DNA of 64,000 nt from Candidatus Puniceispirillum marinum IMCC1322 (GTDB taxonomy: Bacteria; Pseudomonadota; Alphaproteobacteria; Puniceispirillales; Puniceispirillaceae): the NCBI RefSeq assembly GCF_000024465.1, contig NC_014010.1, forward strand, positions 2,207,001 to 2,271,000, in the 5' to 3' direction. Position 1 is the stretch's first letter. Each line of letters opens with the position of its first letter. A program made the translations under genes and the position numbers. This document shows positions 10,207 to 38,874 of this stretch, one piece after another. The notes under the pieces were generated by a model. It worked only from the letters and a program-made list of their open reading frames with translations. It ran no database searches and had not been told where the DNA came from.

Positions 10207-11316
10207 ATGAAAACCAGAGCCGCAGTCGCGATTCAGGCAGGAAAGCCGCTAGAAATTATGGATGTGGATCTTGAAGGGCCACGTGATGGTGAGGTGTTGG
10301 TCGAAATTATGGCAACGGGTATTTGCCATACGGATGAATTCACTCTGTCAGGCGCTGATCCTGAAGGTATGTTTCCGGCCATTCTTGGCCATGAAGGCGC
10401 TGGTATCGTGCGCGAAGTTGGCAAAGGCGTTACCTCGCTACAGGCCGGCGATCATGTGATCCCGCTTTATACGCCGGAATGCCGTGAATGTGACTATTGC
10501 CTGCACCCGAAAACAAATCTATGTCAGGCGATCCGCACAACGCAAGGTCAGGGGGTTATGCCCGATGGCACCAGCCGGTTTTCGATCAAAGGTAAGCCGG
10601 TTCTGCATTATATGGGCACATCGACATTTTCAAACTTTACCGTGGTGCCCGAAATTGCGCTGGCCAAGGTTAATAAGGCCGCCCCGTTTGACAAGATTTG
10701 CTATATCGGCTGCGGTGTGACCACAGGTATCGGGGCGGTTATCAATACAGCAAAGGCCGAGCCCGGATGTAATGCGGTGGTGTTTGGTCTTGGCGGGATC
10801 GGCCTGAATGTGATTCAGGGGTTGCGGATGATCGGTGCCAATATGATTGTTGGCGTCGATATGAATAACAGCAAAAAGGAATGGGGCGAAAAGTTCGGCA
10901 TGACGCATTTTGTCAACCCAAGTGAGGTTGATGGTGATCTGGTTGGTCATCTGGTCGAATTGACCAATGGCGGTGCCGATTATTCCTTTGAATGCATCGG
11001 TAATACGACGGTGATGCGTCAGGCGCTGGAATGCGCGCATAAGGGCTGGGGCGAAAGCATTATCATTGGTGTGGCTGGTGCTGGACAGGAAATTTCAACA
11101 CGACCATTCCAGCTGGTGACAGGCAGAAGCTGGCGCGGCACTGCCTTTGGTGGGGCGCGTGGGCGTACCGATGTGCCAAAGATTGTTGATTGGTATATGC
11201 AGGGCAAGATCGATATCGACCCGCTGATTACACATACATTGCCGCTTGAGGATATCAATAAGGGCTTTGATCTGATGCATGCTGGCGAGTCAATCCGTTC
11301 AGTGGTGATCTATTAA
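10207..11316 (+). CDS. frmA: S-(hydroxymethyl)glutathione dehydrogenase / class III alcohol dehydrogenase
   Basis: 369 residues. Catalytic zinc ligands Cys40 and His62 (GHEGAG) with a third Cys in the IGCGV motif near 170, structural zinc cysteines 92, 95, 98 and 106, and an NAD-binding GLGGIGL. Class III enzymes oxidise the spontaneous formaldehyde-glutathione adduct to S-formylglutathione. The ATG at 10207 follows a strong AAGGGAGA ribosome site; an upstream in-frame start at 10180 is less likely. It overlaps the next gene by one base (TAATG), which encodes the second step. This indicates formaldehyde is produced by catabolism, for example of methylated amines. Confidence 0.95.
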   Translation: MKTRAAVAIQAGKPLEIMDVDLEGPRDGEVLVEIMATGICHTDEFTLSGADPEGMFPAILGHEGAGIVREVGKGVTSLQAGDHVIPLYTPECRECDYCLHPKTNLCQAIRTTQGQGVMPDGTSRFSIKGKPVLHYMGTSTFSNFTVVPEIALAKVNKAAPFDKICYIGCGVTTGIGAVINTAKAEPGCNAVVFGLGGIGLNVIQGLRMIGANMIVGVDMNNSKKEWGEKFGMTHFVNPSEVDGDLVGHLVELTNGGADYSFECIGNTTVMRQALECAHKGWGESIIIGVAGAGQEISTRPFQLVTGRSWRGTAFGGARGRTDVPKIVDWYMQGKIDIDPLITHTLPLEDINKGFDLMHAGESIRSVVIY

Positions 11317-12140
11317 TGGAAACAATCAGTACAGCCTTATCCTATGGCGGCACCCAGGGTGTATATAGGCATATGTCGGTGGTGACCGGATGCGATATGA
11401 CTTTTGCCGTATTTATGCCGCCCCATGATAGACCTGTGCCGGTGCTGTGGTATCTGTCCGGACTGACATGCACCCATGCCAATGTCATGGATAAGGGAGA
11501 GTATCGCCGCGTTGCTGCCGAACTGGGTGTGGCGATTGTCTGCCCTGATACCAGCCCGCGGGGTGCTGATATACCGGATGAAGCTGATAACTGGCAGTTT
11601 GGTAGTGGTGCTGGTTTTTATGTTGATGCCACGCAGACGCCCTATGCCGAAAACTATAATATGTACAGCTATGTCAGCGAAGAATTGCCAGCGCTGATTG
11701 CGGCAGAATTTGACGTTGATATGAGCCGGCAAGGTATTTTTGGCCATTCAATGGGCGGGCATGGCGCATTGACCATCGCGCTGAAACATCCGGATCGCTA
11801 TAAAAGCGCATCCGCCTTTGCCCCGATTACCCAGCCATCAACGGCTGACTGGTCATCGGGATCACTGGCCAAATATCTTGGTGATGACGCATCAGGCTGG
11901 CGCCAATATGATGCTGTTGCCTTGCTTGAAGACGGGTATAGGTTTGATGATTTTCTGGTAGATCAGGGTACAGCGGACAGTTTTCTTGAAAGTGGCCTGC
12001 GACCATGGTTGCTGGAAGAGGCGTGCAAGAATGCCGGACAGAAGCTGACCTTGCGCATGCAAGAGGGCTATGACCATTCCTATCTGTTCGTGTCCAGCTT
12101 TATGGAAGATCACCTACGCTGGCACATGAAACGTCTTTAG
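11316..12140 (+). CDS. fghA: S-formylglutathione hydrolase
   Basis: 274 residues, full length for the esterase-D family. The nucleophile is Ser145 in GHSMGGHG, with the aspartate in DQGTADSF and the histidine in GYDHSY. The N-terminal block LSGLTCT is also typical. It hydrolyses S-formylglutathione to formate and glutathione in the cytoplasm, completing glutathione-dependent formaldehyde oxidation begun by the upstream dehydrogenase to which it is translationally coupled. No formate dehydrogenase is in the window. Confidence 0.95.
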   Translation: METISTALSYGGTQGVYRHMSVVTGCDMTFAVFMPPHDRPVPVLWYLSGLTCTHANVMDKGEYRRVAAELGVAIVCPDTSPRGADIPDEADNWQFGSGAGFYVDATQTPYAENYNMYSYVSEELPALIAAEFDVDMSRQGIFGHSMGGHGALTIALKHPDRYKSASAFAPITQPSTADWSSGSLAKYLGDDASGWRQYDAVALLEDGYRFDDFLVDQGTADSFLESGLRPWLLEEACKNAGQKLTLRMQEGYDHSYLFVSSFMEDHLRWHMKRL

Positions 12141-12162
12141 CGGTATCGCCATAGGAGGCTAA

Positions 12163-13107
12163 ATGAAAAATCAGCCATTGGGCGGCAATGATATGCCGCG
12201 TTTTGCAGGGCCTGGTACGATGATGCGCCTGCCTTCGGCTGATAATGCTGCGGGGTTAAATGCCTGTTTTGTCGGCGTGCCAATGGATATCGGCGCATCA
12301 AATCGCCCAGGAACGCGGTTTGGTCCCAAACAGATTCGGGCCGAGTCGGTGATGCTTCGCCCCTATAATATGTGGACAAAGGCAGCGCCGTTTGATTCGA
12401 TTCAGGTTGCTGATATTGGTGATGTGCCGATCAATACATTTGATCTGAAAGACTCGGTTAAACGCATTACCGGGTTTTATGATGATGTGCTGACGCATGA
12501 TGTGATTCCGCTATCACTTGGTGGTGATCATACAATGACCTTGCCCATTTTACGTTCGATGGCCAAAAAGCATGGGCCTGTTGGTTTGATTCATGTTGAT
12601 GCCCATGCCGATATAAATGAGCATATGTTTGGTGAAGAGATTGCGCATGGCACGCCGTTCCGCCGCGCATGGGAAGAAAAACTGATCAATCCAGAACGCA
12701 CCTATCAGATTGGCTTGCGCGGCACTGGCTATACAGCCGAAGATTTTGACTGGGCGCGTGATAAGGGTTTTTCCGTAACCCAAGCGGAAGAATTATGGCA
12801 TCGTTCCGCCGCGCCGTTGATGGCAAAAATCAAGGCTGCGCTGGGTGATGATCCGGTTTATTTAAGTTTTGACATTGATGCGCTTGATCCGGCTTTTGCG
12901 CCAGGCACCGGCACGCAGGAGATTGGTGGTCTGACGACGATACAGGCGCTTGAAATCATTCGTGGTTGTCGCGGTTTGAATATTGTGGGCTGTGACCTTG
13001 TTGAAGTCTCGCCGCCATATGATCCGCAAGGCAGTACGGCTTTGGTCGCGGCGAATTTGTTATTTGAAATGTTATGCGTTCTGCCGGGCGTCGCATATCG
13101 GAGCTAG
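12163..13107 (+). CDS. agmatinase-family ureohydrolase
   Basis: 314 residues. The dimanganese ligands are visible: His123 in GGDHT, Asp146, His148 and Asp150 in HVDAHAD, and the two aspartates of SFDIDALDPAFAPG. This family splits a guanidino group to urea plus an amine; members act on agmatine, guanidinobutyrate, guanidinopropionate or arginine, and the sequence alone does not settle which. An AGGAGG site lies 4 bases before the ATG. Only 22 bases separate it from fghA and 24 from the M24 hydrolase, so it belongs to this operon rather than to the polyamine region, which has its own homologue at 36503-37474. Confidence 0.88.
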   Translation: MKNQPLGGNDMPRFAGPGTMMRLPSADNAAGLNACFVGVPMDIGASNRPGTRFGPKQIRAESVMLRPYNMWTKAAPFDSIQVADIGDVPINTFDLKDSVKRITGFYDDVLTHDVIPLSLGGDHTMTLPILRSMAKKHGPVGLIHVDAHADINEHMFGEEIAHGTPFRRAWEEKLINPERTYQIGLRGTGYTAEDFDWARDKGFSVTQAEELWHRSAAPLMAKIKAALGDDPVYLSFDIDALDPAFAPGTGTQEIGGLTTIQALEIIRGCRGLNIVGCDLVEVSPPYDPQGSTALVAANLLFEMLCVLPGVAYRS

Positions 13108-13131
13108 CACGTTCTGAATGGGGGATTAATT

Positions 13132-14307
13132 ATGGCACCAGCATTTAGCAAAGCTGAATATAACAACCGTATTGACCGTGTGCGCGAGGCTATGCAAGCA
13201 CGTGATATCGAGGTCCTGGTGATTGGCGATCCGTCAAATATGAACTGGCTAACCGGGTTTGACTCATGGTCATTTTATACACCGCAGATGGTGGTGCTGG
13301 ATTTGGTCAATGGGCCATTTCTGATGACCCGTCTGATGGATGCGAAGGCGGCCAGCTTTACCACCTATTTGCCTGAATCGCAGATCATTGGCTATCCCGA
13401 GCATATGGTACAGCAACCAGATATGCATCCGTCGGATCATGTCGCGGGATGGCTGCGCGACGCGGGCCATGGCACGGCCAGAATCGGATATGAAAGCGAT
13501 AGTTATTACTTTTCGCCGCGGTCTTTGCATGCTTTGCAGACCGGACTGCCCGATGCAAAATGGGTTGATGCTGACTTGCTGGTCAATTGGGTGCGCGCCA
13601 TAAAAAGCGATGCCGAACTGGCGTTTATGTATCAGGCGGCACAGATTGCCGATATCGCCATGCAGGTGGCGTGGGATGGTGCCAAGGTGGGCGTTAGACA
13701 ATGTGATCTGATGGCTGACATTACCGCTGCCCAAATTAAAGGTACGGCTGAATTTGGCGGTGATATGCCTGCCTTGCATCCATTGATTCTGGCAGGTGAG
13801 GCGGCAACAGCAGCGCATCCGATGTGGACTGATGCCAAACTTGAGGCAGGGCAGACAATTGCCTTTGAGCTTGGCGCATGTCGTAAGCGCTATAATGTCG
13901 GGCTGGCGCGGACGGTGCATCTTGGGGCAGATAAGCCAGCCGCCTTGATCGATACGGCAAAAGCGGTTGAAGAAGGTATGGATGCGGTTATGTCATCCTT
14001 GCAGGCTGATGCGGTGGCAGGGGATGTGCATGCCGCGTGGCAAAATGTGCTTGATCGCTATGGGCTGGAAAAGAAAAGCCGCATTGGCTATTCGATTGGT
14101 GTTGCCTATGCCCCAGATTGGGGCGAGCATACGATCAGCTTCCGGCCAGCAGAACCAACAATCGTGCCGGAAAATGCCGTTGTGCATATTATCCTCGGCA
14201 TGTGGATGGATGGATGGGGTATGGAGCTAAGCGAAACATTGCATGTGCGGGAAAAGGACTGTGTAAGGCTGAGCGCATTTCCACAACATGTGCATGTGGT
14301 TAGCTGA
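13132..14307 (+). CDS. M24 (creatinase/Xaa-Pro) family hydrolase, ectoine hydrolase (DoeA/EutD)-like
   Basis: 391 residues with the two-domain creatinase/aminopeptidase-P fold. The N-terminal block around residues 36-52 (NMNWLTGFDSWSFY) looks like ectoine hydrolases DoeA/EutD. The metal ligands of true peptidases are missing: where peptidases have Asp and a DxTRT motif, this has Glu246 in FELGAC and Gly257-Leu-Ala-Arg-Thr. By eye the creatinase catalytic Glu position is Ala259, though His229 aligns with the creatinase active-site His. DoeA enzymes open the cyclic amidine ring of ectoine to an N-acetyl-diaminobutyrate without metal. It overlaps the M20 deacetylase by one base. Ectoine hydrolase is the best guess; another amidine or guanidino substrate is possible. 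Confidence 0.75.
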   Translation: MAPAFSKAEYNNRIDRVREAMQARDIEVLVIGDPSNMNWLTGFDSWSFYTPQMVVLDLVNGPFLMTRLMDAKAASFTTYLPESQIIGYPEHMVQQPDMHPSDHVAGWLRDAGHGTARIGYESDSYYFSPRSLHALQTGLPDAKWVDADLLVNWVRAIKSDAELAFMYQAAQIADIAMQVAWDGAKVGVRQCDLMADITAAQIKGTAEFGGDMPALHPLILAGEAATAAHPMWTDAKLEAGQTIAFELGACRKRYNVGLARTVHLGADKPAALIDTAKAVEEGMDAVMSSLQADAVAGDVHAAWQNVLDRYGLEKKSRIGYSIGVAYAPDWGEHTISFRPAEPTIVPENAVVHIILGMWMDGWGMELSETLHVREKDCVRLSAFPQHVHVVS

Positions 14308-15518
14308 TGACAACGCCGCTTGAACAGGCCGAACGGTTGCTGGCTGATCTGGTCAGCTTCCCCACTGTTACGGGTTTACCAAATGGTGACATGATCGCCT
14401 ATATCAAAAGTTATCTGGAAAATCTGGGCATACCGGTGATGCTGGATCCACATGAAGATGGCACGCGGTTCAATTTGTTTGCGACGATTGGATCCGGCGA
14501 CTGTGACGGAATCATTCTATCGGGACATACCGATGTGGTGCCAGCAACCGGAGATGGCTGGAGCCGTGATCCCTTTGTTCTGCATAAGCAGGATGGGCGT
14601 CTATATGGCCGCGGTGCGGTCGATATGAAAGGGTTTCTGGCGACGGCACTGGCGATGGCACCAGCATTCAAGGCGGCTGAAGACAAGCTGAGCATGCCGT
14701 TACATTATGCGTTCACCTTTGATGAGGAAGTGGGCAGTTTTGGCGCGGCGCAAATGCCAGATTTTCTGCGCCGAATGGGGATCAAGCCTGCGCTGGCGAT
14801 CATTGGCGAACCAACAGGCATGCGGCCATTCATCGGGCATAAGGGCGGCTTGGAACTGGTCGCTGAAATACGTGGGTCGGCAGGCCATGCCTCGGATCCA
14901 CGTGGTAAGGTGAATGCGCTTTATTATGCGGCGCGGCTGATTACCTATATCGAACAGGTGGCAGCCAGGCTAGCCGATGCGCCGGTTCCAGATTCGCCGT
15001 TTGACCCGCCCTATACAACCTTGTCGGTTGGTCATATCGAAGGCGGTGAAGCCCGCAATATTGTACCCGATTATTGTCGTTTTCTATGGGAAATCAGACC
15101 GCTACCCGGAGATGATGCCTATGCCATTCTGGCTGATATAAAAGCCTATATCGCCGATGAGCTTGTGCCAGAGATGCAGGCGATCCTTGCCGATGCGGGC
15201 ATTAGCATAACCGAAATATCATGGTGCCCGGGGATGGAGGCGCGCGCTACATCATCGGCGGCATCGCTGATTGCGCGCCTATGGACAAATGAGGCGCCGT
15301 CGGTTGTGTCCTTTGGCACTGATGGCGGGCATTATCAGCAGGCAGGCATGGAAACAATTGTATTTGGCCCGGGCGGTATGGATGAAATGCATCAGCCTGA
15401 TGAATTTATCGAGGTGGATGCGATCAAACAGGGTCTGGCCTTTCTGGAAAATCTGCTTCGCTATGCACAGGAACCACCACAACAAGGTCACATATCCCCA
15501 TCTGGCGACAACTCTTGA
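14307..15518 (+). CDS. argE: M20 family N-acyl-amino acid deacetylase (ArgE-like)
   Basis: 403 residues. Zinc ligands and catalytic residues are in order: His and Asp in SGHTDVVP, Asp in GAVDMKG, Glu-Glu in DEEVGS, Glu in GEPT. The closest family is acetylornithine deacetylase, which removes acetate from N-acetylornithine. Placed directly behind a DoeA-like hydrolase with a TGATG overlap, it may instead deacetylate the acetylated product of that enzyme, a role normally filled by the unrelated DoeB. It overlaps the next gene by four bases. Family certain; the substrate is inference. Confidence 0.85.
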   Translation: MTTPLEQAERLLADLVSFPTVTGLPNGDMIAYIKSYLENLGIPVMLDPHEDGTRFNLFATIGSGDCDGIILSGHTDVVPATGDGWSRDPFVLHKQDGRLYGRGAVDMKGFLATALAMAPAFKAAEDKLSMPLHYAFTFDEEVGSFGAAQMPDFLRRMGIKPALAIIGEPTGMRPFIGHKGGLELVAEIRGSAGHASDPRGKVNALYYAARLITYIEQVAARLADAPVPDSPFDPPYTTLSVGHIEGGEARNIVPDYCRFLWEIRPLPGDDAYAILADIKAYIADELVPEMQAILADAGISITEISWCPGMEARATSSAASLIARLWTNEAPSVVSFGTDGGHYQQAGMETIVFGPGGMDEMHQPDEFIEVDAIKQGLAFLENLLRYAQEPPQQGHISPSGDNS

Positions 15519-16396
15519 CTATTCGTGACTTTCTGATCGCGCTTTTGGTGCCGCTGACATGGGGGTTTGGTTTTGCCCTAGCCAAAAGCGGGTTAGAGCA
15601 TTTCCCGCCGCTATTGCTGATGGGAATGCGCTTTGGTATTGCCGCCCTGATACTGGTCTGGTTTGTGCCGATACCGCGTCGTCATCTGGTCACCTTGTTT
15701 TTCATCGCCTTTGTTTCGGCAACAATGCAATATGGTCTGACTTTTTCAGGTCTGGCGCGGATGGATGCCACGCCTGCGATTTTGCTGGTGCAAAGCGAGG
15801 TGATTTTTGGCGTTGTTATTGGTGCGTTATTGTTGGGTGAAAAGCCCAATTTACGACAGTTTCTTGGTATCATAATCGCGCTTATTGGCATCATAATCCT
15901 GATTGGCGGACCGGCTCTGAGTAACAAAGTGTTTGGCATAATTCTGGTTTTGTCTGGCTGTCTGATATGGGCGTTTGGACAGGTGCTGATCCGTAAATAC
16001 ACCAGTGGTCTGACAGGTTTCCAGCTAACAGCATGGGTCGGGGTGATGGCTAGCCCGCAAATGTTTCTGGCGTCGTTTTTTGTCGAAGGCAATCCATTAC
16101 CTTTTCTTTTGGCAGCACCCCTATCAGCATGGGGAACGGTGATCTATCTTGGCATCGTCATGACAGTGGTTGGTTATTCGGCATGGTATTATGTGCTGGG
16201 GCGCTATCCGGTGCCCGTGGTGATGCCGTTACAGATGCTGTTGCCAGTATCGACAATTCTGGGGGCTGTTACGTTTCTCGGCGAACGCCCTGACCCCATC
16301 GTCTTTGCGGGTGGCATCGTGGTTATTATTGGCGTTGGTGTGGTCATTATAGAGCCATCAATTCTACGTAAATGGCGGCAAAATAGCTTAAAATAG
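15515..16396 (+). CDS. EamA/DMT superfamily transporter
   Basis: 293 residues with ten predicted membrane helices in two repeated halves, each an EamA domain (for example LTWGFGFALAKSG near the start and the second-half GCLIWAFGQVLIRKY). These proteins usually export amino acids or metabolites. The start is a TTG inside the argE stop region (TTGA overlap), which couples it to the upstream operon; it may move the substrate or a product of the ureohydrolase, M24 and M20 enzymes. Direction and substrate are unknown. Confidence 0.85.
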   Translation: MTIRDFLIALLVPLTWGFGFALAKSGLEHFPPLLLMGMRFGIAALILVWFVPIPRRHLVTLFFIAFVSATMQYGLTFSGLARMDATPAILLVQSEVIFGVVIGALLLGEKPNLRQFLGIIIALIGIIILIGGPALSNKVFGIILVLSGCLIWAFGQVLIRKYTSGLTGFQLTAWVGVMASPQMFLASFFVEGNPLPFLLAAPLSAWGTVIYLGIVMTVVGYSAWYYVLGRYPVPVVMPLQMLLPVSTILGAVTFLGERPDPIVFAGGIVVIIGVGVVIIEPSILRKWRQNSLK

Positions 16397-16542
16397 ACAG
16401 ATTGGAATAGGGTTGGCTAAATTAAGCGGCGCTGTGTGCTTGTAATTTTTCCTTTCCGCTTTTAAGTTTCCCGCATCAGGTTCATTTTTTGCTGTTAGCC
16501 AGAAGTTTATTTTGGCCGTTAGCCAGTTTGGGACGTTTACAT

Positions 16543-17208
16543 ATGTCACATGAGATCATCATAGCTCCATCAATTCTGGCGTCTGACTTCAGCCGGCTTG
16601 GCGACGAGATCAAAGCGGTCGATCAGGCTGGTGCTGACTGGATTCATCTTGATGTCATGGATGGGCATTTTGTACCGAACCTGACCTTTGGCCCACCGAT
16701 TATCAAGGCGCTACGCAATACAACTGACAAGATTTTTGATGCGCATCTTATGGTCTCTAATCCAGATGTTCTGCTGGCTGATTATGCTGCTGCTGGTGCA
16801 AATTATGTTACAGTTCATGCCGAAGCCTGTGATCATCTTGACCGGACATTGTCGCATATTCGCGAACTTGGCTGTAAAGCCGGTGTCGCGCTAAATCCGC
16901 ATACGCCCGCCGCCGTTATTCAGCATGTCATGGATCGACTTGATCTGGTTCTGGTTATGACTGTTAATCCGGGCTTTGGCGGGCAGGTCTTTATTCCGGC
17001 CATGGTGGAAAAGATAGCCACAATAAATGACATGATTGACGGGCGTGATATTATTATAGAGGTTGATGGTGGTATTACTGCCGAAACAGCCGGTGCGGTA
17101 GTACGGGCTGGCGCGCAAGTGCTTGTCGCGGGATCGGCAATTTTCAAGGGGGATAACCAAGCATCTTACAGCGGCAATATTGCGCGCATAAGAGATGCTG
17201 TGCGGTAG
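16543..17208 (+). CDS. rpe: ribulose-phosphate 3-epimerase
   Basis: 221 residues from ATG 16543 giving the standard IAPSILASDFSRLG N-terminus. The TIM-barrel motifs are intact: HLDVMDGHFVPN (metal-binding His and catalytic Asp), VNPGFGGQ and VDGGI with the second catalytic aspartate. It interconverts ribulose-5-phosphate and xylulose-5-phosphate in the pentose phosphate pathway. A frame extension to 16489 has no homologous character. It stands after a 146-base gap and is probably transcribed with the following gene. Confidence 0.95.
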   Translation: MSHEIIIAPSILASDFSRLGDEIKAVDQAGADWIHLDVMDGHFVPNLTFGPPIIKALRNTTDKIFDAHLMVSNPDVLLADYAAAGANYVTVHAEACDHLDRTLSHIRELGCKAGVALNPHTPAAVIQHVMDRLDLVLVMTVNPGFGGQVFIPAMVEKIATINDMIDGRDIIIEVDGGITAETAGAVVRAGAQVLVAGSAIFKGDNQASYSGNIARIRDAVR

Positions 17209-21270: not shown

Positions 21271-22593
21271 CTATTTTTCTTCAAGTGCCTGATCAAGTGT
21301 CTTGCGGAACTTGTCGACAATCTCGTCAATGTGATGACGCTCGGCCACAAAGGCTGGCGCGACAATCGCATTGTCACCAGTCCATTTGATGTGCAGACCA
21401 TTCCAGAACATCGCTTTTTGCATATTGCCGCCACGGCGGCCCGGGGCACCATCTGAATGTACTTCAATACCAGCCATCATGCCGATGCCACGAATGTCGG
21501 CAACAAGCGGATGATCCTGTAATGTCCACATGGCATCAAGGAAGTAGTCTTCCAGTGCCGCAGCATTTTCAAACAGGCCTTCATCCTGATAGATTTTCTG
21601 GGTGGCAATACCGGCGGCACAAGCTGCCGGGTGCGCTGAATAGGTGTAGCCATGGAAAAACTCGATAGCATTATCCGGTGCAGAATTGGTGATCGTATCA
21701 TAGATTTCGTCTGTAACAGCAACACCGCCCATTGGAATGGCACCATTCGTCAATGCCTTGGCCATGGTGATGATGTCAGGCTTGACGTTGAATTTCTGTG
21801 TCGCAAATGGGGTGCCCATACGGCCAAAGCCGGTGATAACCTCGTCAAATACCAGAATCAAACCATGCTTATCGCAGATTTCACGTACCTTTTCGAGATA
21901 GCCAACCGGCGGTACCAATGTGCCTGTCGATCCGGCTACCGGCTCGATAAAGACTGCGGCGAGGGTGCTACCGCCAAGGTTCTCGGCAATGCGCTCAAGA
22001 TCCATAGCCAGTTCAGCACCTGTTTTTGGCTGACCCTTGCTGAAGCGCTGATCTTCCTGCCATGTGTGACGGATCAGCGAAATATTCGGCAGCGTCAAGC
22101 CAAATGTTTCACGATTGCGTACCATGCCAGCAAGCGAAACACCGCCCATATTGACGCCATGATAGGCACGTTCACGGCTGATCAGACGGTTACGCTGTGC
22201 TTCACCACGTGCGCGCTGATAGGCCAGAATAACCTTGATCGCGGTCTCAATTGATTCAGAGCCCGAATTGGTGAAGAAAACATGATTGAAATCATCTGGC
22301 AGAAGACGGCAAACGCGTTCAGCCAGATCGAATGATCCGGGGTGGCCCAGCTGGAAATGAGGTGTGTAATCATTTTCGAGCATCTGCTTGTACACGGCTT
22401 CGGCGATCTCGCGGCGTCCATGTCCAGCAGGTGTGCAGAACAAAGCAGATGATCCATCAATAATCTGGCCACCTTTATAATCCCACATATACATCCCATC
22501 AGATTTGACGACCATCCGGGGGTTTTTCTTGAAATCACGGTTGGCCGAAAACGGCATCCAGTGGCTTTCAAGAGAATTAGCGTCATATGCCAT
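21271..22593 (-). CDS. class III omega-amino acid:pyruvate aminotransferase (beta-alanine or taurine type)
   Basis: 440 residues of the PLP fold-type I class III family. The PLP lysine is Lys279 (MAKALTNG), with Asp250 in FDEVITGFG contacting the pyridine nitrogen. The N-terminal SHWMPFSANR and the FHGYTYSAHP block resemble beta-alanine:pyruvate aminotransferases. It transfers an amino group from an omega-amino acid to pyruvate, giving alanine and a semialdehyde. It is divergent from a MocR regulator and followed two genes away by a phosphotransacetylase, the neighbourhood of taurine-pyruvate aminotransferase genes, so taurine or hypotaurine are alternative substrates. Confidence 0.85.
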   Translation of the reverse strand: MAYDANSLESHWMPFSANRDFKKNPRMVVKSDGMYMWDYKGGQIIDGSSALFCTPAGHGRREIAEAVYKQMLENDYTPHFQLGHPGSFDLAERVCRLLPDDFNHVFFTNSGSESIETAIKVILAYQRARGEAQRNRLISRERAYHGVNMGGVSLAGMVRNRETFGLTLPNISLIRHTWQEDQRFSKGQPKTGAELAMDLERIAENLGGSTLAAVFIEPVAGSTGTLVPPVGYLEKVREICDKHGLILVFDEVITGFGRMGTPFATQKFNVKPDIITMAKALTNGAIPMGGVAVTDEIYDTITNSAPDNAIEFFHGYTYSAHPAACAAGIATQKIYQDEGLFENAAALEDYFLDAMWTLQDHPLVADIRGIGMMAGIEVHSDGAPGRRGGNMQKAMFWNGLHIKWTGDNAIVAPAFVAERHHIDEIVDKFRKTLDQALEEK

Positions 22594-22763
22594 AACAGTT
22601 CTCCAATATCTTATGGGCAGGCCTTGCCAAGACGAATGCCTTTATATGCCTGTCGCGTTGCATTTTTAACATTTTACAAAATTAGTGGGCGTAACGCTAT
22701 TCCTATTGTGCCAAGCCCTGTTTTATATATTTCACGTTACGGGGCAAACATCCCGTTTCAATA

Positions 22764-22804
22764 GAACCAGATATGCCATTGACTGGTACCAGATTCAATG
22801 GTTC
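22764..22804. promoter_or_regulatory. candidate MocR operator in the divergent promoter
   Basis: A dense set of repeats lies 58-98 bases before the regulator ATG: the direct repeat ACCAGAT at 22766 and 22788 (22 bases apart, about two helical turns), the palindrome CTGGTACCAG at 22783-22792, and the inverted arms CCATTGA / TCAATGG and GAACCA / TGGTTC around it. MocR proteins typically bind direct repeats in the shared promoter with a divergent aminotransferase gene, which fits this position. Confidence 0.55.
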
Positions 22805-22861
22805 AAAAGATATAGTATTTGCACGGCCTTAGATGATTAACTGGACAGTAAAGCAGGCACA

Positions 22862-24400
22862 ATGAACGAGCATATCATCATCACGCTGGATTCTGAGTCA
22901 GGTGTCAGTCTGCAAGCGCAAATAAGGCAAAGCGTTGTCGAAGCGATTCTGGGACGATCAATCCTGCCTGGTGATAAGCTGCCATCAAGTCGCGCCTTAT
23001 CCGCGCAGTTGAATGTGTCGCGCAATACGGTGATTCTGGCCTATCAAGCCTTGATCGATACAGGCTATATCGAAACGCGGGAAAGATCAGGCTATGTGGT
23101 CAGTGATGATGCGCCGATATCGCCACTGGTTGATACGCCCGGTAATGATAGTGAAGCATTATATCCCGTTGATGACATGGATGATGTGATTCGACCTAAG
23201 CTAGCTGATAGTCGGGCGCAGGTTGATTGGGATGCCAAGCTGGTCCAGTCATGCAGTTATGTCCGGCCAGTGCAAAAGCCGGTCAATTGGCGTGAATATA
23301 AATATCCCTTTGTCTATGGTCAGGTTGATAATGAATTATTCTCGCTGTCGGAATGGCGTGATTGTGCTCGACAAGCATTTGGCATGCGCAATTTTGGCAC
23401 GATGGTTGGTGACTTTGGTCAGCATGATGATCCAATGCTGGTCAATTATATATGTTCGCGCAGTCTGCCCCGTCGTGGAATCAGAGCGCGTCCTGAACAA
23501 ATTCTGGTCACGCTTGGGGCGCAGAACGCATTATATCTGGTGGCGCAGTTGATCGTCGATGCGAGTAAGCATGTCGTTATCGAAAATCCAGCCTATCCCG
23601 ATTTGCGTGATATTCTGCTACAACGCACGCAGAACATCCATCCACTTCCCGTTGATGAGGGGGGGCTGGTGCTAGATGAAGGGGTGTTGCGTCAAAGTGA
23701 TTCAGTATTTATCACGCCCAGTCACCAATGCCCAACAACCTTTACCATGCCTGCGGATCGGCGGCGGCAACTGCTTGATATGGCGCGGCGGCATGATCTG
23801 TTGATCGTCGAAGATGATTATGAATTTGAGATGAATTTTCTGGGTGCGCCAACCCCAGCGTTGAAATCACAGGATGAAGATGGTCGGGTGATCTATGTTG
23901 GCAGCCTATCAAAATCGGTGTTTCCGGGCTTGCGGTTGGGCTATTTGGTGGCACCAGAAGGGCTGATTAGCCAAGCGCGGGCTCTGCGGCATCTGATCCT
24001 GCGACATCCTCCAGGCCATGCGCAACGCACACTGGCTTATTTTATGGCGCTTGGTCATTATGATGCCCAGATTCGCCGCCTGCGTCGGCATCTGGCCGGG
24101 CGGCATACAGCGTTGCAAAATGCGCTTGATCAGGAAGGGCTGTTTGCCCGCACAGGATCGCATTTCGGGGGTACCAGCTTCTGGGTCAAAGGGCCTGACT
24201 GGCTTGATGCCCGTGAATTGGCACAGCGCGCCGCAGAAGAAGGTGTGCTGATCGAAGCTGGAGATGTGTTCTTTGGCAGGACGCGGCCACCACTTAATTA
24301 TTTCCGGCTTGCCTATTCGGCGATTGCGGCTGAACGCATCCCTGATGGCATTCAAAGGCTGGCTACTGTTATGCGCCGGATGCAAAGCCAAAAACCATGA
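22862..24400 (+). CDS. MocR-type transcription regulator (GntR wHTH fused to class I aminotransferase domain)
   Basis: 512 residues. Residues 15-80 form a GntR winged helix-turn-helix (GDKLPSSRALSAQLNVSRN), followed by a linker and an aspartate-aminotransferase-fold domain with the PLP-binding Lys351 in GSLSKSVFPG. MocR regulators sense PLP adducts of amines and usually control the divergent neighbour; TauR, PdxR and GabR are examples. The divergent aminotransferase and the nearby phosphotransacetylase make a TauR-like or beta-alanine-responsive activator the leading guess. Confidence 0.9.
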   Translation: MNEHIIITLDSESGVSLQAQIRQSVVEAILGRSILPGDKLPSSRALSAQLNVSRNTVILAYQALIDTGYIETRERSGYVVSDDAPISPLVDTPGNDSEALYPVDDMDDVIRPKLADSRAQVDWDAKLVQSCSYVRPVQKPVNWREYKYPFVYGQVDNELFSLSEWRDCARQAFGMRNFGTMVGDFGQHDDPMLVNYICSRSLPRRGIRARPEQILVTLGAQNALYLVAQLIVDASKHVVIENPAYPDLRDILLQRTQNIHPLPVDEGGLVLDEGVLRQSDSVFITPSHQCPTTFTMPADRRRQLLDMARRHDLLIVEDDYEFEMNFLGAPTPALKSQDEDGRVIYVGSLSKSVFPGLRLGYLVAPEGLISQARALRHLILRHPPGHAQRTLAYFMALGHYDAQIRRLRRHLAGRHTALQNALDQEGLFARTGSHFGGTSFWVKGPDWLDARELAQRAAEEGVLIEAGDVFFGRTRPPLNYFRLAYSAIAAERIPDGIQRLATVMRRMQSQKP

Positions 24401-24535
24401 TGAAATCCACGATGTGTGAGGCTGGGATGCTGGACTGCTGAGTGTTATGGCGTGAAAATTCGTTTAAGATGGTGTCTTTTCCTGATATGAGTCAGATATA
24501 TATGGCTCTAAGAGACACCCGCATATGATGCGGAG

Positions 24536-25543
24536 ATGAGTGAGACTGATATGAGTATATTGCAAAGCAACCGGTCACAAAACAGCGCCCCAAAGAACAG
24601 CGAACCAAGCGGGTTTCTGTCAGATGCTAAAGGTGATTGTCCACCCGATCTTCTGGTACGTGCTACAACCGGCACCCCGCCAGCCTTTGCGTTTGTGCGG
24701 GCGATTGGTGACGCGGTGCTGCAAACCGCGCGTCAGGCACATGAAGCTAATCTAATTCGTCCCATTCTTGTTGGTGAGCCAGATATTATCGCCGAAGATG
24801 CGCATGCCTTGGGCTGGGATCTCGATGGTATCGAGATTGTCGAAAGCAAAGGCGAGAAGGGGGCTATCGAAGCGGCTATCAAACTGATTCAAAATGGTAA
24901 CGCCAGCGGTCTGATCAAAGGGCAGTTGCATACCGATGTCTTTATGGGCGGTATCGTCCGGCGTGACGCCGGCATCCGTATCGGCAAACGGCTTGTGCAT
25001 GTGTTTGCGATGTTGCCGCCAGCTGGGGGGCGGGCGTTGCTGATCAGCGATGCGGCGGTCAATGTGGCGCCGGATATCGAAACCCGAACCGAAGCGGCCT
25101 TGTTGATGGGTGACCTTGTTCGTAAATTGGGGCAGGAACGCCCCAAGGTGGCGGTTCTGTCAGCGACCGAGTCGGTGCTGGATGCGGTGCCGTCAAGTGG
25201 TGATGCGGTGGCTATTGCCAAGGCGGCACAGGCGCAAGACGACCAGGCAGATTATGCCGGGCCATTATCCCTTGATCTGGCCATTTCGCCCGGTGCGGTG
25301 GCTATGAAAAAACTGGATCCCAGCGCACCTATTGCGGCTGTAGCGGGCATGGCAGATGCGCTGGTTGTCCCCGATATCGTATCTGGCAATGTGCTGTTCA
25401 AATCACTGGTCTGGTGTGCAGGTGGGCTAGCGGCAGGGCTGGTGCTTGGGGGCGGTGTGCCGATTGTGCTGACCAGCCGTTCGGATCCACCGGCAGCACG
25501 GCTGGCATCTATTGCGCTGGCGGTTATCGCGGGTAAGGATTAG
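24536..25543 (+). CDS. phosphate acetyl/butyryltransferase (single-domain Pta)
   Basis: 335 residues covering one PTA/PTB domain; the first 30 residues are a polar extension. The block GLIKGQLHTDVFMGGIVRRD near 122-143 is the typical core. It swaps CoA and phosphate between acyl-CoA and acyl phosphate. No acetate kinase is present. In taurine degraders a stand-alone Pta converts the acetyl phosphate released by Xsc to acetyl-CoA; the aminotransferase and MocR gene upstream suit this, but xsc is not here. The gap of 135 bases after the regulator leaves room for its own promoter. Confidence 0.85.
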   Translation: MSETDMSILQSNRSQNSAPKNSEPSGFLSDAKGDCPPDLLVRATTGTPPAFAFVRAIGDAVLQTARQAHEANLIRPILVGEPDIIAEDAHALGWDLDGIEIVESKGEKGAIEAAIKLIQNGNASGLIKGQLHTDVFMGGIVRRDAGIRIGKRLVHVFAMLPPAGGRALLISDAAVNVAPDIETRTEAALLMGDLVRKLGQERPKVAVLSATESVLDAVPSSGDAVAIAKAAQAQDDQADYAGPLSLDLAISPGAVAMKKLDPSAPIAAVAGMADALVVPDIVSGNVLFKSLVWCAGGLAAGLVLGGGVPIVLTSRSDPPAARLASIALAVIAGKD

Positions 25544-30881: not shown

Positions 30882-30939
30882 CATGCCGTAAACAAAGCAT
30901 AATCATGATACGTTTGGCTTTACGTGAAATGGATTGATA

Positions 30940-32304
30940 ATGGATGAATTTGATTATGCGGCCTGGCAAAAGGCGAATCAGGACATAGACAGTCTGCGCG
31001 CGGTTACGTTTGATCTGAATGGGGTCATGCGGGGTAAACGTCTGCCTGTTACACAACTGAAAAAAGTCACATCCGATGAAATGCGAATGCCGCTTTCAAC
31101 TGCAAATGTCGATATCTGGGGTCGTGATATCGAAAATAGTAAATGGGTGTTTGCCACCGGCGATGCGGATGGCACCTGTGTCTGGACAAAGCGTGGCCCC
31201 TTACCCATGACTGATATCAAAACCGGCAAACGGTCAGCGATGTTGCCGCTGGGCCTTCATAATGAAGATGGTACGCCCTTTATGGGGGATGCGCGCAATG
31301 TGCTGGTGTCAATCCTCGAGCGTTATTATGCACAGGGCATGACGCCGGTTGCGGGTGTCGAGCTGGAATTTTATCTTGCTTCGGCACGCAAGGCCCCGGC
31401 AGATATACCCGTGACGCCATCATCGCCAATGAATGGTGCCTCATCTATGCGCGAGGCGGTGTTGGCGGTCGATGAACTTAATGACTATGATGCTTTTCTG
31501 ACAGATTTATATGCGGCATGCGCGGCACAGAATGTTGCGGTCGATGCCGCCACTAGCGAAAGTGGCCAGGGGCAGTTTGAAGTGACGCTGGCGCATCAAA
31601 GCGATCTGTTGAAAGTGGCTGATGATGCGATGTTATTCAAACATATTGCCAAATATGTGGCACGCCAGCACGGTATGGCGGCCAGCTTTATGGCCAAGCC
31701 TTATGCCGAACGCCCGGGAAGCGGCTTGCATGTCCATATCAGCTTACTGGATGATGAAGGGCGTAATCTGTTTGACGATGGGGGCGCGTCGGGAAGTGAT
31801 ATGATGCGCGATGCCATTGGAGGCCTGTTGGCACATATGGCTGACGCTATGCTTATTTTTGCACCGCATATGAATTCCTATCGTCGGCTGGCGCTGGAAA
31901 TGCATGCGCCAGTGGTGATATCCTGGGGCTATGAAAACCGGACTGTCGCGGTGCGTGTGCCGCATGGGTCAGGCGCGGCGCGGCGGATTGAACATCGTGT
32001 TGCCGGTGCTGATAGTAATCCCTATCTGATGCTGGCGATCATTCTGGCAACAGCCATGCAAGGCATGCAGGATAAAACAGACCCGGGCTCGCCGATTGCC
32101 GATAACGCCTATGCGCATGATTTGCCGCGTTTACCTGATAATTGGCAGGCAGCAATCGAAAGGTTTGAAACTAGCCCTATCATACACAGCCTTTTGCCAG
32201 CTACCTGCCAGCAGATGTTTGTTGATTGCAAGAAACAGGAATATAGAGAATTCCAGCAACAAATCTCGCCGTTTGAATATTTTAGCTATCTTGATCAAGT
32301 CTAG
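30940..32304 (+). CDS. glutamine synthetase-family protein, gamma-glutamylpolyamine synthetase-like (copy 1)
   Basis: 454 residues from ATG 30940. The GS catalytic fold is clear: GVELEFYLA (first metal-binding glutamate), SESGQGQFEV, a PGSGLHVHIS histidine motif, ENRTVAVRVPHG and the arginine loop after it. It lacks the adenylylation tail of GlnA. Together with PuuB-like oxidases, Pot transporter and aminotransferase it most likely ligates glutamate to putrescine or another amine using ATP. It differs clearly from copy 2 (40389-41729), so the two may serve different amines. Confidence 0.85.
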   Translation: MDEFDYAAWQKANQDIDSLRAVTFDLNGVMRGKRLPVTQLKKVTSDEMRMPLSTANVDIWGRDIENSKWVFATGDADGTCVWTKRGPLPMTDIKTGKRSAMLPLGLHNEDGTPFMGDARNVLVSILERYYAQGMTPVAGVELEFYLASARKAPADIPVTPSSPMNGASSMREAVLAVDELNDYDAFLTDLYAACAAQNVAVDAATSESGQGQFEVTLAHQSDLLKVADDAMLFKHIAKYVARQHGMAASFMAKPYAERPGSGLHVHISLLDDEGRNLFDDGGASGSDMMRDAIGGLLAHMADAMLIFAPHMNSYRRLALEMHAPVVISWGYENRTVAVRVPHGSGAARRIEHRVAGADSNPYLMLAIILATAMQGMQDKTDPGSPIADNAYAHDLPRLPDNWQAAIERFETSPIIHSLLPATCQQMFVDCKKQEYREFQQQISPFEYFSYLDQV

Positions 32305-32433
32305 GATTATGCACCAATATCCGATCAATTTGTTGAATTATGCCGCATAAAGTGGTTAGGATTAGGCAAAGACTGCCACTGGTTTTGTATCTATTTCGTG
32401 CACTAACGGTCTTTAATCAAAACAAGGGAGCTA

Positions 32434-33522
32434 ATGATGAAGAAACTGTCTTTTATCTGTGTGATAGCCATGGCTGTGTCAACGCCGGTTTTTGCAGACG
32501 GGTCGCTGAATATCTATAACTGGTCGGATTATATTGGCGAAGATACGATTGCTAATTTCGAAGCAGAAACTGGCATTGATGTCACCTATGATATGTATGA
32601 CTCGAATGAGGTTCTGGATGCCAAAATGATGGCAGGTTCATCTGGTTATGATCTGGTTGTCCCAACTGCCGATTTCCTCGTACGTGGCCGCGAAGCTGGC
32701 GTGTATCAGGATATGGATCTGTCACGCCTTAAAAATGCTAGTAATCAGGATCCGCAAATTCAAGGCCTAGCAGATCAAGCGATGGGTTCGAACGCGGCAG
32801 GTCTGGTCTATATGTGGGGTACAACAGGTGTAGCCTATAATGAAAAGATGATCGCTGACCGGCTTGGCGACGATGCACCTACTGATAGCTGGAGCCTGAT
32901 CCTCGATCCGAAATATGCGTCCAAGCTTGAAGATTGTGGCATCGCCATTCTGGATGCACCTACCGATGTTTTACCAAACGTCATCGCCTATCTTGGCAAG
33001 GATGGCACCAGTAAAAACAAAGCTGATTTTGAAGCAGCAGGTGAAGTCTTGAATGCGGTGCAACCATATTTACGCTACATCCATTCCAGCCAGTCAATCA
33101 ACGATATGGCCAATGGTGATCTATGTGCGGCGATTATGTGGTCGGGTGACGCCTTTCAGGCGGCAGCACGCGCCGAAGAAGCCGAAAACGGGCATATTAT
33201 CAATTATGTCATTCCATCCGAGGGGACAAATATGTGGTTTGACGTTATGGCAATTCCGGCTGATGCCAAGAATCTGGATAACGCCTATAAATTCATTGAT
33301 TACATGATGCGGGCTGATGTGGCTGCGGAAAATGTGAATTATGTCTGGTATGCCAGCGGTAATGCGGCGGCAAATCCGCAAATTGATCCCGAAATTCTGG
33401 AACATCCGGGCATCTATCCATCGGCTGAGGCACAAAAAAACCTGTTTGTTGTTCCCGTCTATGACGCCAAACTGGACCGTGTGGTGAACCGTGTCTGGTC
33501 ACGCTTTGCATCAGGCGGCTGA
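32434..33522 (+). CDS. polyamine ABC transporter substrate-binding protein (PotF/SpuD-like)
   Basis: 362 residues with a cleavable signal peptide (basic MMKK, hydrophobic core, likely cut after VFA near residue 22). The mature start NIYNWSDYIG is the classical PotD/PotF/SpuD motif whose Trp-Ser-Asp residues contact the polyamine. It captures putrescine or spermidine in the periplasm for the following Pot genes. A strong AAGGGAG site precedes the ATG. A stable hairpin follows the stop and may favour higher expression than the membrane genes. Confidence 0.92.
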   Translation: MMKKLSFICVIAMAVSTPVFADGSLNIYNWSDYIGEDTIANFEAETGIDVTYDMYDSNEVLDAKMMAGSSGYDLVVPTADFLVRGREAGVYQDMDLSRLKNASNQDPQIQGLADQAMGSNAAGLVYMWGTTGVAYNEKMIADRLGDDAPTDSWSLILDPKYASKLEDCGIAILDAPTDVLPNVIAYLGKDGTSKNKADFEAAGEVLNAVQPYLRYIHSSQSINDMANGDLCAAIMWSGDAFQAAARAEEAENGHIINYVIPSEGTNMWFDVMAIPADAKNLDNAYKFIDYMMRADVAAENVNYVWYASGNAAANPQIDPEILEHPGIYPSAEAQKNLFVVPVYDAKLDRVVNRVWSRFASGG

Positions 33523-33556
33523 TAACTAACTGCTGATGTTATAATCTGATCTGATT

Positions 33557-33589
33557 CCCATCTTTGGCGTCGTGTATGCCGAAGGTGGG
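33557..33589 (+). other. stable hairpin between binding-protein and ATPase genes of the Pot operon
   Basis: A 13-bp stem with three G-U pairs (CCCATCTTTGGCG 33557-33569, TGCCGAAGGTGGG 33577-33589) and a 7-nt loop lies 34 bases after the binding-protein stop. There is no T tract, so it is more likely an mRNA-stabilising or partial attenuation element than a full terminator. Confidence 0.65.
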
Positions 33590-33632
33590 TGATCGGGTTG
33601 GTTCACACCTAAGAACAGGATGAGATTGGTCG

Positions 33633-34721
33633 ATGGCTCCCTTTATCCGCCTGCAGAATGTCACTAAAAGTTTTGCTGATATCAATGCCGTGAATAACCT
33701 ATCGCTGGATATCGAGCAGGGGGAATTATTTTGCCTGCTGGGTGCGTCTGGATGTGGAAAATCGACTTTGTTGCGGATGCTTGCCGGGTTTGAAACACCA
33801 ACCTCCGGACGCATTGAAATTGATGGTCAGGATATGGTCGATGTATCGCCTGCTGACCGTCCTGTAAATATGATGTTTCAGAGCTATGCGTTGTTTCCGC
33901 ATATGACGGTTGCCAATAATATTGCCTATGGTTTGCGCCGTGCCGGTATGCAGGGCGCCGAACTAGATGCGCGTGTTAATAGCCTCATAAAGCTTGTCCG
34001 GCTTGATGGGCTGGGATTGCGCAAACCGCATAAATTGTCAGGAGGTCAGCGCCAACGCGTTGCCCTTGCGCGTGCTTTGGCGCGTCAGCCAAAGTTACTA
34101 CTACTTGACGAGCCTTTGGCGGCGCTGGATAAGAAATTACGCGAAGATACCCAGTTCGAGCTTGTTGATATTCAGGAAAAACTGGGTACAACATTTATTG
34201 TTGTGACACACGATCAAGAAGAAGCCATGACGCTGGCCACGCGGATTGGTATTATGGATCAGGGTTGCCTTGAACAGGTTGACGCGCCTCGCGTTCTGTA
34301 TGAACGGCCAAAGAATAGTTTTGTGGCTAATTTTCTGGGCACGGCCACCTTTATCACAGGTACTGTTGCAAAAATCGATGGCCCATTCATTCATGTCGAT
34401 GGGGCATGCCCGACAGTGGTATGTCTTGATCCACAGTCAGACCAGGTTATGCCTGAAACGGGTGCCGCAGTGACGCTTGCGATCCGGCCAGAAAAAATTC
34501 ATCTGACCCGAGATGCTACTGGCCGAGATAATGAAAGCTCAGTCATTATTGAAGATATTGCCTATCTGGGCGTTGCTTCGAATTATCGGGTTAAACGCGA
34601 TGATGGCTTGCTATTCAAACTGCAACAGACGCATAGCCAACGTAACGAGACACCGCTGGAATGGGAAGAAAAAGGCTTTGTGCATTTCGACCCTGCCGAT
34701 GTGATCTTGCTTGAGGATTAG
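33633..34721 (+). CDS. potA: polyamine ABC transporter ATP-binding protein
   Basis: 362 residues. Walker A GASGCGKST near 38-46, Q-loop, signature LSGGQRQRVALARAL near 135-149, Walker B LLLLDEPLAALD and switch histidine in VTHDQEEA, then a C-terminal TOBE domain (about 280-360). It energises import with the two permeases downstream. Three bases separate it from the next gene. The name potA or potG depends on whether the substrate is spermidine or putrescine. Confidence 0.92.
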   Translation: MAPFIRLQNVTKSFADINAVNNLSLDIEQGELFCLLGASGCGKSTLLRMLAGFETPTSGRIEIDGQDMVDVSPADRPVNMMFQSYALFPHMTVANNIAYGLRRAGMQGAELDARVNSLIKLVRLDGLGLRKPHKLSGGQRQRVALARALARQPKLLLLDEPLAALDKKLREDTQFELVDIQEKLGTTFIVVTHDQEEAMTLATRIGIMDQGCLEQVDAPRVLYERPKNSFVANFLGTATFITGTVAKIDGPFIHVDGACPTVVCLDPQSDQVMPETGAAVTLAIRPEKIHLTRDATGRDNESSVIIEDIAYLGVASNYRVKRDDGLLFKLQQTHSQRNETPLEWEEKGFVHFDPADVILLED

Positions 34722-34724
34722 GCG

Positions 34725-35648
34725 ATGGGCGCGTTCATAGCACGTTTTGGAAAGCGCCTTGTTGTTATTTTGCCGCTGACATGGCTGGCTATGTTTTTCC
34801 TGATGCCTTTGATTGAAACTGTGCAGGTTTCATTTACCACTGCCCGTCGTAGTGTACCGCCCTATGCCCCTTTATGGGGGTTTGAGGATGGTGTTTTTTT
34901 CACCAATTTCAATCTCGAAAATTACGCCTTGCTGTTTGAATATTGGCAGGATTATCTGGGGCCAGCGGGTAATTCGGTGCGGCTAGCCTTTTTTGCGACG
35001 CTTGTTTGTCTGCTTTTTGCCTATCCGATGGCTTGGTGGATAGCACGATCTGCCGCGCGTATGCGAACCATATTACTGGTTCTGGTCATGTTGCCTTTCT
35101 GGACGTCGAGCTTGTTGCGGCTGTATGCGCTGATTGGCCTTTTGAATCCCAACGGATTCATCAATAGCACGCTTATTTATATCGGCCTGATTGATCAGCC
35201 GATTGGCATGATGCAGACCGATTTTTCAATCTATATGGGTATGGTTCTGACCTATTTACCGCTGATGATTTTGCCACTTTACGCAACGATGGTGCGGCTT
35301 GACGGAGATTTGATCGAGGCAGCAGCCGATCTTGGCGGATCGCGCTTTCATATCTTTGCCACCGTCATTCTGCCTTTGACGATACCGGGTATCATCGCGG
35401 GAAGTCTGCTGGTGTTTATTCCTGCGGTTGGTGAATTTGTCGTGCCAGCTTTGCTTGGTGGCCCCGATCAGATGATGATCGGCAAAGTGCTATGGACCGA
35501 GTTTTTCCGCAATCGTGACTGGCCAGTGGCGGCATCGCTTGCCATGTTGCTGATTGCCATTCTGACTGTGCCGATTATCTATGCGCGTTATCAGGATGGT
35601 CGTCAGGATGATGCCGAAACGCATAAGCTGGGGAACTCCGCGTCATGA
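34725..35648 (+). CDS. potB: polyamine ABC transporter permease (PotB/PotH type)
   Basis: 307 residues with six membrane helices and the coupling-loop EAA motif LIEAAADLGGSRFHIF followed by LPLTIPGI. A periplasmic stretch after helix 1 is usual in PotB. It pairs with the downstream permease, which it overlaps by four bases (ATGA). Confidence 0.92.
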   Translation: MGAFIARFGKRLVVILPLTWLAMFFLMPLIETVQVSFTTARRSVPPYAPLWGFEDGVFFTNFNLENYALLFEYWQDYLGPAGNSVRLAFFATLVCLLFAYPMAWWIARSAARMRTILLVLVMLPFWTSSLLRLYALIGLLNPNGFINSTLIYIGLIDQPIGMMQTDFSIYMGMVLTYLPLMILPLYATMVRLDGDLIEAAADLGGSRFHIFATVILPLTIPGIIAGSLLVFIPAVGEFVVPALLGGPDQMMIGKVLWTEFFRNRDWPVAASLAMLLIAILTVPIIYARYQDGRQDDAETHKLGNSAS

Positions 35649-36457: not shown

Positions 36458-36502
36458 GGATGCGTATGGCCAGGCCGATGAATGGATTTACAGGAGCAGA
36501 CT

Positions 36503-37474: not shown

Positions 37475-37491
37475 TTATATCCTGTCGTTGC

Positions 37492-38772: not shown

Positions 38773-38842
38773 CTATGATATGACCCCATGATATTTGTTA
38801 AGGTGACATTTGTTAAGCTGTTATGATTGCTTATGAATTTTA

Positions 38843-38874
38843 TCCAGCGTAATGTTATCTTAACGTAATCTGGA
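38843..38874. promoter_or_regulatory. repeat-rich candidate operator between puuB-like and aminotransferase genes
   Basis: Within the 190-base divergent region, TCCAG (38843-38847) and CTGGA (38870-38874) flank GTTA (38854-38857) and TAAC (38861-38864), an interrupted palindrome; CGTAAT also occurs twice, 16 bases apart. It is a plausible binding site for a polyamine-responsive regulator, but no such regulator gene is adjacent. Confidence 0.4.

Follow-up and report, generated by a model that had tools for sequence, protein, structure and literature searches.

Surface seawater everywhere contains bacteria of the SAR116 clade. The genome of Candidatus Puniceispirillum marinum IMCC1322 carries a string of six co-oriented genes in which a hydrolase of the M24 fold, related to the ectoine hydrolase EutD (also called DoeA), is directly followed by an ArgE-like deacetylase of family M20, and it is this M24-M20 pair that concerns us here. 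The string was analysed within a stretch of 64,000 nucleotides (contig NC_014010.1, positions 2,207,001 to 2,271,000 of the forward strand), hereafter called the window, whose first letter is position 1 of the coordinates below. Loci and genomes of relatives are cited by our own L and G numbers. The genes of the string, one codon of interest and the matches on which their assignments are based are the following:

10207..11316, + strand: frmA, S-(hydroxymethyl)glutathione dehydrogenase (TIGR02818, 614 bits, cut-off 544)
11316..12140, + strand: fghA, S-formylglutathione hydrolase (TIGR02821, 432 bits, cut-off 282)
12163..13107, + strand: ureohydrolase, most likely a guanidinobutyrase (agmatinase model TIGR01230, 213 bits, cut-off 174; structure 3nio)
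13132..14307, + strand: M24-fold metal-less hydrolase of a sister clade of EutD/DoeA (TIGR02993, 391 bits; structure 6twk; tree)
13867..13869, + strand: codon GAG for E246 of the M24 protein, aligned with DoeA Glu255 (alignment, DNA)
14307..15518, + strand: M20 ArgE-like deacetylase, proposed to replace DoeB/EutE (TIGR01892, 360 bits, cut-off 298)
15515..16396, + strand: EamA/DMT-family membrane transporter with a TTG start (Pfam PF00892, 142 bits)

The FrmA start is taken as the ATG at 10207; an in-frame ATG upstream, at 10180, begins the open reading frame (ORF) in the ORF listing. Neighbouring genes overlap by 1, 1 and 4 bases or are separated by gaps of 22 and 24, and the ORFs bear out the genes, order, overlaps and gaps given in an earlier account of this DNA made from the letters alone (the sequence-only reading). 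Judged from the spacing, a single transcript is likely. Promoter-like and terminator-like sites found in a scan did not rise above shuffle level, and neither RNA families nor transfer RNAs were found in the window. None of eutABC, enuR, asnC, atf and ssd was recognised at the window locus. The EamA transporter gene is kept after the M24 and M20 genes in most SAR116-family loci.

The nearest solved relative of the M24 protein is DoeA (6twk, 288 bits). Creatinase (1chm), which likewise uses the M24 fold as a non-peptidase hydrolase, reaches only 28 bits, and an assignment as creatinase was rejected on this difference. All five positions that we take to bind metal in the prolidases 5cdl and 1wy2 (D, D, H, E, E) are replaced in the window protein, by E246, G257, Y320, I354 and S367 as read by eye from the alignment, which also led us to reject a metal peptidase. 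With DoeA as nearest solved relative and the metal ligands replaced, the earlier description of this protein as a metal-less relative of DoeA holds. In a tree of 97 of the 103 M24 rows, 6 of the 14 SAR116-type rows being left out, the canonical EutDs form a clade of 26 rows (support 100), and the window protein belongs to a separate clade of 58 rows (support 99) with an inner group of 42 rows (support 99). Five of the 18 rows labelled by EutE fall in this 58-row clade. Fifty-nine positions are common, at 97% or more, to the 26 canonical-clade EutDs and 48 window-type M24s, and the window protein has 58 of them; they include H229, D211, W330-G331-E332, E368 and E246. The last aligns with Glu255 of DoeA, presumably the catalytic residue that forms the covalent intermediate, and is invariant in 48/48 window-type proteins and 26/26 canonical EutDs. 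Another 29 positions differ in a nearly fixed manner between the two sets, and those near E246 in the sequence are A244/F, G248/A, N255/H and G257/P. Because the active-site and shared residues are kept, the window M24 would work like EutD, despite a model score and a tree placement by which it is not filed as one.

The M20 protein consists of the Peptidase_M20 and M20_dimer domains. Its motifs GHTD, DMKG, DEE, GEPT and HQPDE align with those of the ArgE structure 7rsf, in which we take the corresponding residues to supply the metal site and the base. The EutE model TIGR02994 is not among the NCBIfam matches listed (25 of 54) for the window proteins, and the M20 protein is not of the EutE family. 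It could be argued that it is the acetylornithine deacetylase of arginine synthesis, standing next to an unrelated, peptidase-like M24 enzyme, since it passes the ArgE model and conserves the ArgE motif residues. That model does not discriminate, however: the M20 of an ectoine operon described below (L131, 380 bits) and a Roseovarius M20 (363 bits) pass it too. The genome also encodes a second ArgE-like M20, 37% identical to the first, and the two part company in the M20 tree. The second groups with the unlinked M20s of relatives, whereas the window protein groups with 25 M20s linked to EutD or M24 genes, apart from 20/20 unlinked background M20s. The background proteins were hand-picked from longer listings within the same class, the SAR116-type M20 rows were limited to eight, and that of L059 was excluded. 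We consider the arginine-synthesis explanation quite unlikely.

The pairing of the two genes was followed in a survey of 136 genomes of the order, 28 of which, the own genome included, have a close M24 (at least 67% identity). The M20 gene adjoins it on the same strand in 27/28, the exception being G379, whose sequence ends at the M24 gene. Loci of named genomes were split into nine with an FrmA of the SAR116 type and 34 others. An M20 gene lies within 6 kb of the M24 gene at 8/9 of the former and 12/34 of the latter, and all 12 belong to the 21 other loci whose M24 is at least 62% identical; one of them, L087, is a cut Candidatus Puniceispirillum contig. Loci from the genome search span about 4 kb each, so that partners beyond that range are invisible there, and neighbours are labelled by their best BLAST matches to a small set of reference proteins, except where a curated model is cited. 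What recurs across genomes is the M24-M20 pair rather than the whole six-gene set.

M20 proteins of the window's group are also found next to EutD itself. In four other alphaproteobacterial genomes such an M20 gene lies directly beside an EutD gene of the canonical clade. Two of these loci are plain ectoine operons, with the orders Atf-Ssd-AsnC-M20-EutD (L131) and Atf, AsnC, EutC, EutB, EutD-M20 (L135); at L136 an Atf and an EutA-like gene are near, and at L130 only an EutB-like gene. A fifth canonical EutD with an M20 (L059) lies at a contig edge. Over all 26 canonical-clade EutDs, EutE is near in 13, an M20 in five, and neither in the stretch seen in eight. Within the family of L130 (f161), M20 adjoins an M24 of this kind in five genomes (G414-G418), and G410 has an EutE over the cut-off. 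The EutE model was searched in 20 genomes and gave matches over the cut-off in seven, whereas the four swap genomes and nine others had none over it; the seven had been chosen for an EutE-like gene beside EutD, and their 7/7 is a control of the search only. A further 15 genomes or records, the own included, gave two matches over the cut-off. Conversely, relatives of the Roseovarius M20 with at least 63% identity occur in 9/9 of genomes G424-G432, the source of the query (G428) among them, and the seven EutE genomes have no match to it above 43% (E <= 1e-90). That a group of ArgE-like M20 proteins stands in for EutE is our firmest result. Since M20s of the same group adjoin canonical EutD in genomes without an EutE over the cut-off, the window M20 very probably replaces DoeB/EutE, a replacement already proposed by the sequence-only reading and supported here both by these four genomes and by the recurrent M24-M20 pair.

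Compared with the known EutD/EutE (DoeA/DoeB) system, the window likewise has a metal-less M24 protein with the Glu255 equivalent beside a deacetylase, and relatives of the pair share the surrounding ectoine-operon genes; it differs in that the M24 protein scores under the model cut-off and falls in a sister clade, and that the deacetylase is an ArgE-like M20 instead of a member of the EutE family. The DoeB of a methanotroph is 22% identical to its Halomonas counterpart (PMC7192451). No published exchange of EutE for an M20 was found in the open-licence literature searched. The nearest case concerns abgB of Bacillota ectoine clusters, which we take to encode a family M20 protein. The putative ectoine clusters of these Gram-positive bacteria also have a eutD-type gene without a eutE homologue, and then abgB, with an abgB-thrA-adh operon; the accessible portion of the source does not propose abgB as the deacetylase (PMC13188858). 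At least one survey of ectoine users counted only genomes with adjacent eutD and eutE, 363/8850 in all (PMC8739950), and such a count would miss users in which an M20 deacetylase holds the place of EutE. A 2025 survey of the SAR116 clade names ectoine transport for one subclade and, in its available part, does not name degradation (PMC12262181). The M24-M20 pair would be a new form of the ectoine hydrolase-deacetylase pair, and an EutD sister clade that sometimes shares a genome with EutD points to a second substrate.

We propose that the functional unit of the string is the M24-M20 pair (13132-15518), which would carry out an ectoine-type ring opening followed by deacetylation. The M24 enzyme would open the ring of ectoine, a cyclic amidine, or of a close analogue by means of E246 and free of metal, yielding an N-acetyl diamino acid from which the M20 enzyme, through its metal site, would take off the acetyl group in the role of DoeB/EutE. 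The EamA transporter is perhaps part of the unit; FrmA and FghA, which would convert formaldehyde to formate, and the guanidinobutyrase would each have a separate job of their own. The gene order, the family placements, the recurring pair and the M20s of its group in the place of EutE beside EutD elsewhere are observations; we infer the reaction, its substrate and product and co-transcription, and put the probability of this proposal at about 0.6.

Several observations weigh against it. The M24 protein misses the EutD/DoeA model cut-off of 613 bits. Support for the M20 group (91/96) is just below the mark for a firm branch, and at nine of the 21 other loci with an M24 of at least 62% no M20 was seen within 6 kb of it; for two of them, L078 and L083, the genome has such an M20 elsewhere. 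The M24-linked M20s of L099, L111 and L112 fall far outside the group, which suggests that recruitment took place more than once. One of the swap genomes (G417) has no match to the Roseovarius M20 at E <= 1e-90, and the EutE model gives matches below its cut-off in G154 (240 bits), G417 (198), G107 (94) and G257 (93). The own genome holds a divergent EutE-model match of 217 bits (cut-off 403) at C1:356383-357339 (L129), and this protein could likewise act as a deacetylase; no M24 gene was called in the surrounding 19 kb. An Atf-like diaminobutyrate aminotransferase was not found in five SAR116-family genomes (best matches 40-44%) nor in G423 (43%). With no Atf in the five genomes tested, the later steps of the canonical route cannot be seen in SAR116, and it is not evident that the product is channelled from diaminobutyrate to aspartate.

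The substrate of the pair is probably an ectoine-type cyclic amidine, because eut-like genes and an ectoine regulator surround the M24-M20 genes of relatives. Their loci hold EutA-like, EutB, EutC-like, Atf, PhyH and Rieske genes. At the Roseovarius loci L076 and L079, M24 is accompanied by an EutA-like protein (234 bits, cut-off 318) and a pair of PhyH oxygenases, and the facing genes encode a GntR regulator, the M20, a Rieske oxygenase, EutB (522 bits, cut-off 413), an EutC-like protein (462 bits, cut-off 472) and an aminotransferase. A plasmid locus brings together a regulator matching the EhuR model (599 bits, cut-off 480), EutA, M24 and M20. Atf is found at 72% identity or more in 10/16 genomes tested, and at L074 and L079, where it shares a gene cluster with M20 and M24, it reaches 79-80% (80% to canonical Atf in the genome of L079). 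The Roseovarius loci L076, L079 and L082 represent a second cluster of eut-like type that includes a Rieske oxygenase and two PhyH oxygenases. R. albus, the source of L082, also carries a canonical enuR-ueh-eutABCDE cluster (L132).

These neighbours, and the clustering of Atf with M20 and M24 at L074 and L079, would fit a pair that acts on ectoine and 5-hydroxyectoine themselves, as a divergent EutD with an exchanged deacetylase. A search with the EutD model in 20 genomes points the same way in part: ten have a match of at least 548 bits, which in four exceeds the cut-off (613), and the other ten have none above 418 bits, which leaves a window-type or other divergent M24 as the sole candidate there. 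Six genomes (G424, G425 and G427-G430) nevertheless keep a window-type M24 (384-418 bits) besides an EutD (572-792 bits), and this coexistence suggests that the two proteins do two different jobs. The 29 near-fixed differences between the clades, several of them near E246 in the sequence, and the five SAR116-family genomes without Atf speak further against ectoine itself, as does G291, which has the pair on one contig and, on a second, another M20 (54%) beside Atf (72%) and two further M24s. We regard ectoine and 5-hydroxyectoine as doubtful substrates. The missing Atf and the M24 kept beside EutD hint at a substrate other than ectoine. A bolder reading, to which we give well under even odds, is that the pair acts on an undescribed ectoine-like marine solute, a cyclic amidine that is neither ectoine nor 5-hydroxyectoine, handled in relatives by a parallel eut-like cluster that accompanies the ordinary one and has EutA, EutB and EutC paralogues and two PhyH oxygenases, and in SAR116 by an Atf-free route.

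A second M24 cluster of the own genome deserves mention (L103, positions 10534-16925 of the locus, C1:810534-816925). It comprises an M24 gene and an agmatinase-like ureohydrolase gene, faced by genes for a PhyH protein, a diaminopropionate ammonia-lyase-like pyridoxal phosphate enzyme (397 bits, cut-off 276), another M24 and an EutA-like protein. The other M24 has no NCBIfam match at E <= 1e-30, and the set is an unexplained ectoine-like one. The same unnamed type of M24 recurs beside an EutA-like gene and an EutD, or a window-type M24, at L011, L014, L136 and L086, which suggests a further enzyme of ectoine-type catabolism.

The remaining genes of the string have a distribution of their own. 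The FrmA gene lies within 2 kb of the close M24 in 25/28 genomes of the order, the guanidinobutyrase gene adjoins it in 20/28, and FghA stands beside the guanidinobutyrase in 16/28 (15 loci and the window). Gene order inside the SAR116 family exceeds chance; part of it reflects slow rearrangement, since the flanking amidase, rpe and rhodanese genes are likewise conserved, as GMC and GST genes often are. The conservation of order in relatives that the sequence-only reading had required of its proposal holds inside the family and fails outside it. That account had suggested that formaldehyde oxidation, ureohydrolase, M24 and M20 act together in degrading a methylated osmolyte of the amidine or guanidino kind. 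The tight spacing of fghA, ureohydrolase, M24 and M20, which are consecutive in 16/28 close genomes, would suit such a pathway, as would a ureohydrolase within 6 kb of M24 at 3/34 other loci (L082, L092, L096) and one adjoining another M24 at L103. These other ureohydrolases are only 28-32% like the window's, however, and those of L082, L096 and L103 pass the agmatinase model (none is among the matches listed for L092).

The distribution of FrmA and FghA, which both pass their curated models, argues in the opposite direction. FrmA was found in 95/136 genomes of the order, 69 of which lack an M24 at 67% or more, and it lies within 6 kb of M24 at 0/34 other loci, as follows from the definition of the split. 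The M24 gene is present in 11 genomes of genus g3, with the M20 gene alongside in ten (G379 again ends at M24), and in all ten where the position is visible fghA is not at the locus. Its absence is seen at L060, L062-L064, L066, L068, L081 and L097. The guanidinobutyrase gene is missing in seven of the 11 g3 genomes, one of which, G373, is cut by a contig end; in six of the seven, FrmA lies 38-162 bases from M24. Both genes are thus lost while M24 and M20 remain. In G291, of another family, the pair stands with neither FrmA nor the guanidinobutyrase beside it, FrmA being on another contig, and in G377 (59% complete) the genes for guanidinobutyrase and FrmA stand side by side with no M24 match. 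On this distribution a tie between formaldehyde and the M24-M20 pair was rejected.

The ureohydrolase itself is most simply read as a guanidinobutyrase. It matches GbuA (3nio) over its whole length at 494 bits, as against 333 bits for the 3-guanidinopropionase GpuA (3nip) and 224 bits for proclavaminate amidinohydrolase, and the metal motifs GGDHT, DAHAD and SFDID are present. The methionine of its EHMFG motif occupies the position of GbuA Met161, where GpuA has a tyrosine, a position that we take to mark guanidinobutyrases. On these residues it is most likely an ordinary guanidinobutyrase, converting 4-guanidinobutyrate to γ-aminobutyrate (GABA) and urea, which differs from GbuA by standing in a SAR116 gene string. 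No publication on SAR116 and guanidinobutyrate was found in the open-licence literature searched. Most genomes with FrmA lack a close M24, fghA and the guanidinobutyrase drop out of g3 loci that keep M24 and M20, and the ureohydrolase carries the residues of an ordinary guanidinobutyrase; the single pathway is accordingly not borne out, and we hold it to be very improbable. FrmA, FghA and the guanidinobutyrase are probably SAR116-family additions and mere neighbours of the M24-M20 pair, and our conclusion is that the oxidation of formaldehyde and the hydrolysis of guanidinobutyrate are distinct functions sharing one gene string.

Some further genes were noted on either side of the string and elsewhere in the window. 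In genus g230, the segment 5242-7711 of L105 places an acyl-CoA dehydrogenase and a 414-residue ORF between the transporter and rpe genes, and several other relatives have there an opposite-strand gene of about 380-420 residues. The window positions 21271-25543 hold an omega-aminotransferase (AptA model, 596 bits, cut-off 500), adjoined, by sequence reading, by a divergent GntR/MocR-type regulator and a phosphate acyltransferase-like ORF. An apparent putrescine-type cluster extends from 30934 to 41729; it includes a ureohydrolase passing the agmatinase model (36482-37474, 419 bits, cut-off 302) and a class III aminotransferase, together with what read as two glutamine-synthetase-like proteins, an ATP-binding cassette (ABC) uptake system and a flavin adenine dinucleotide (FAD) oxidase-like protein.

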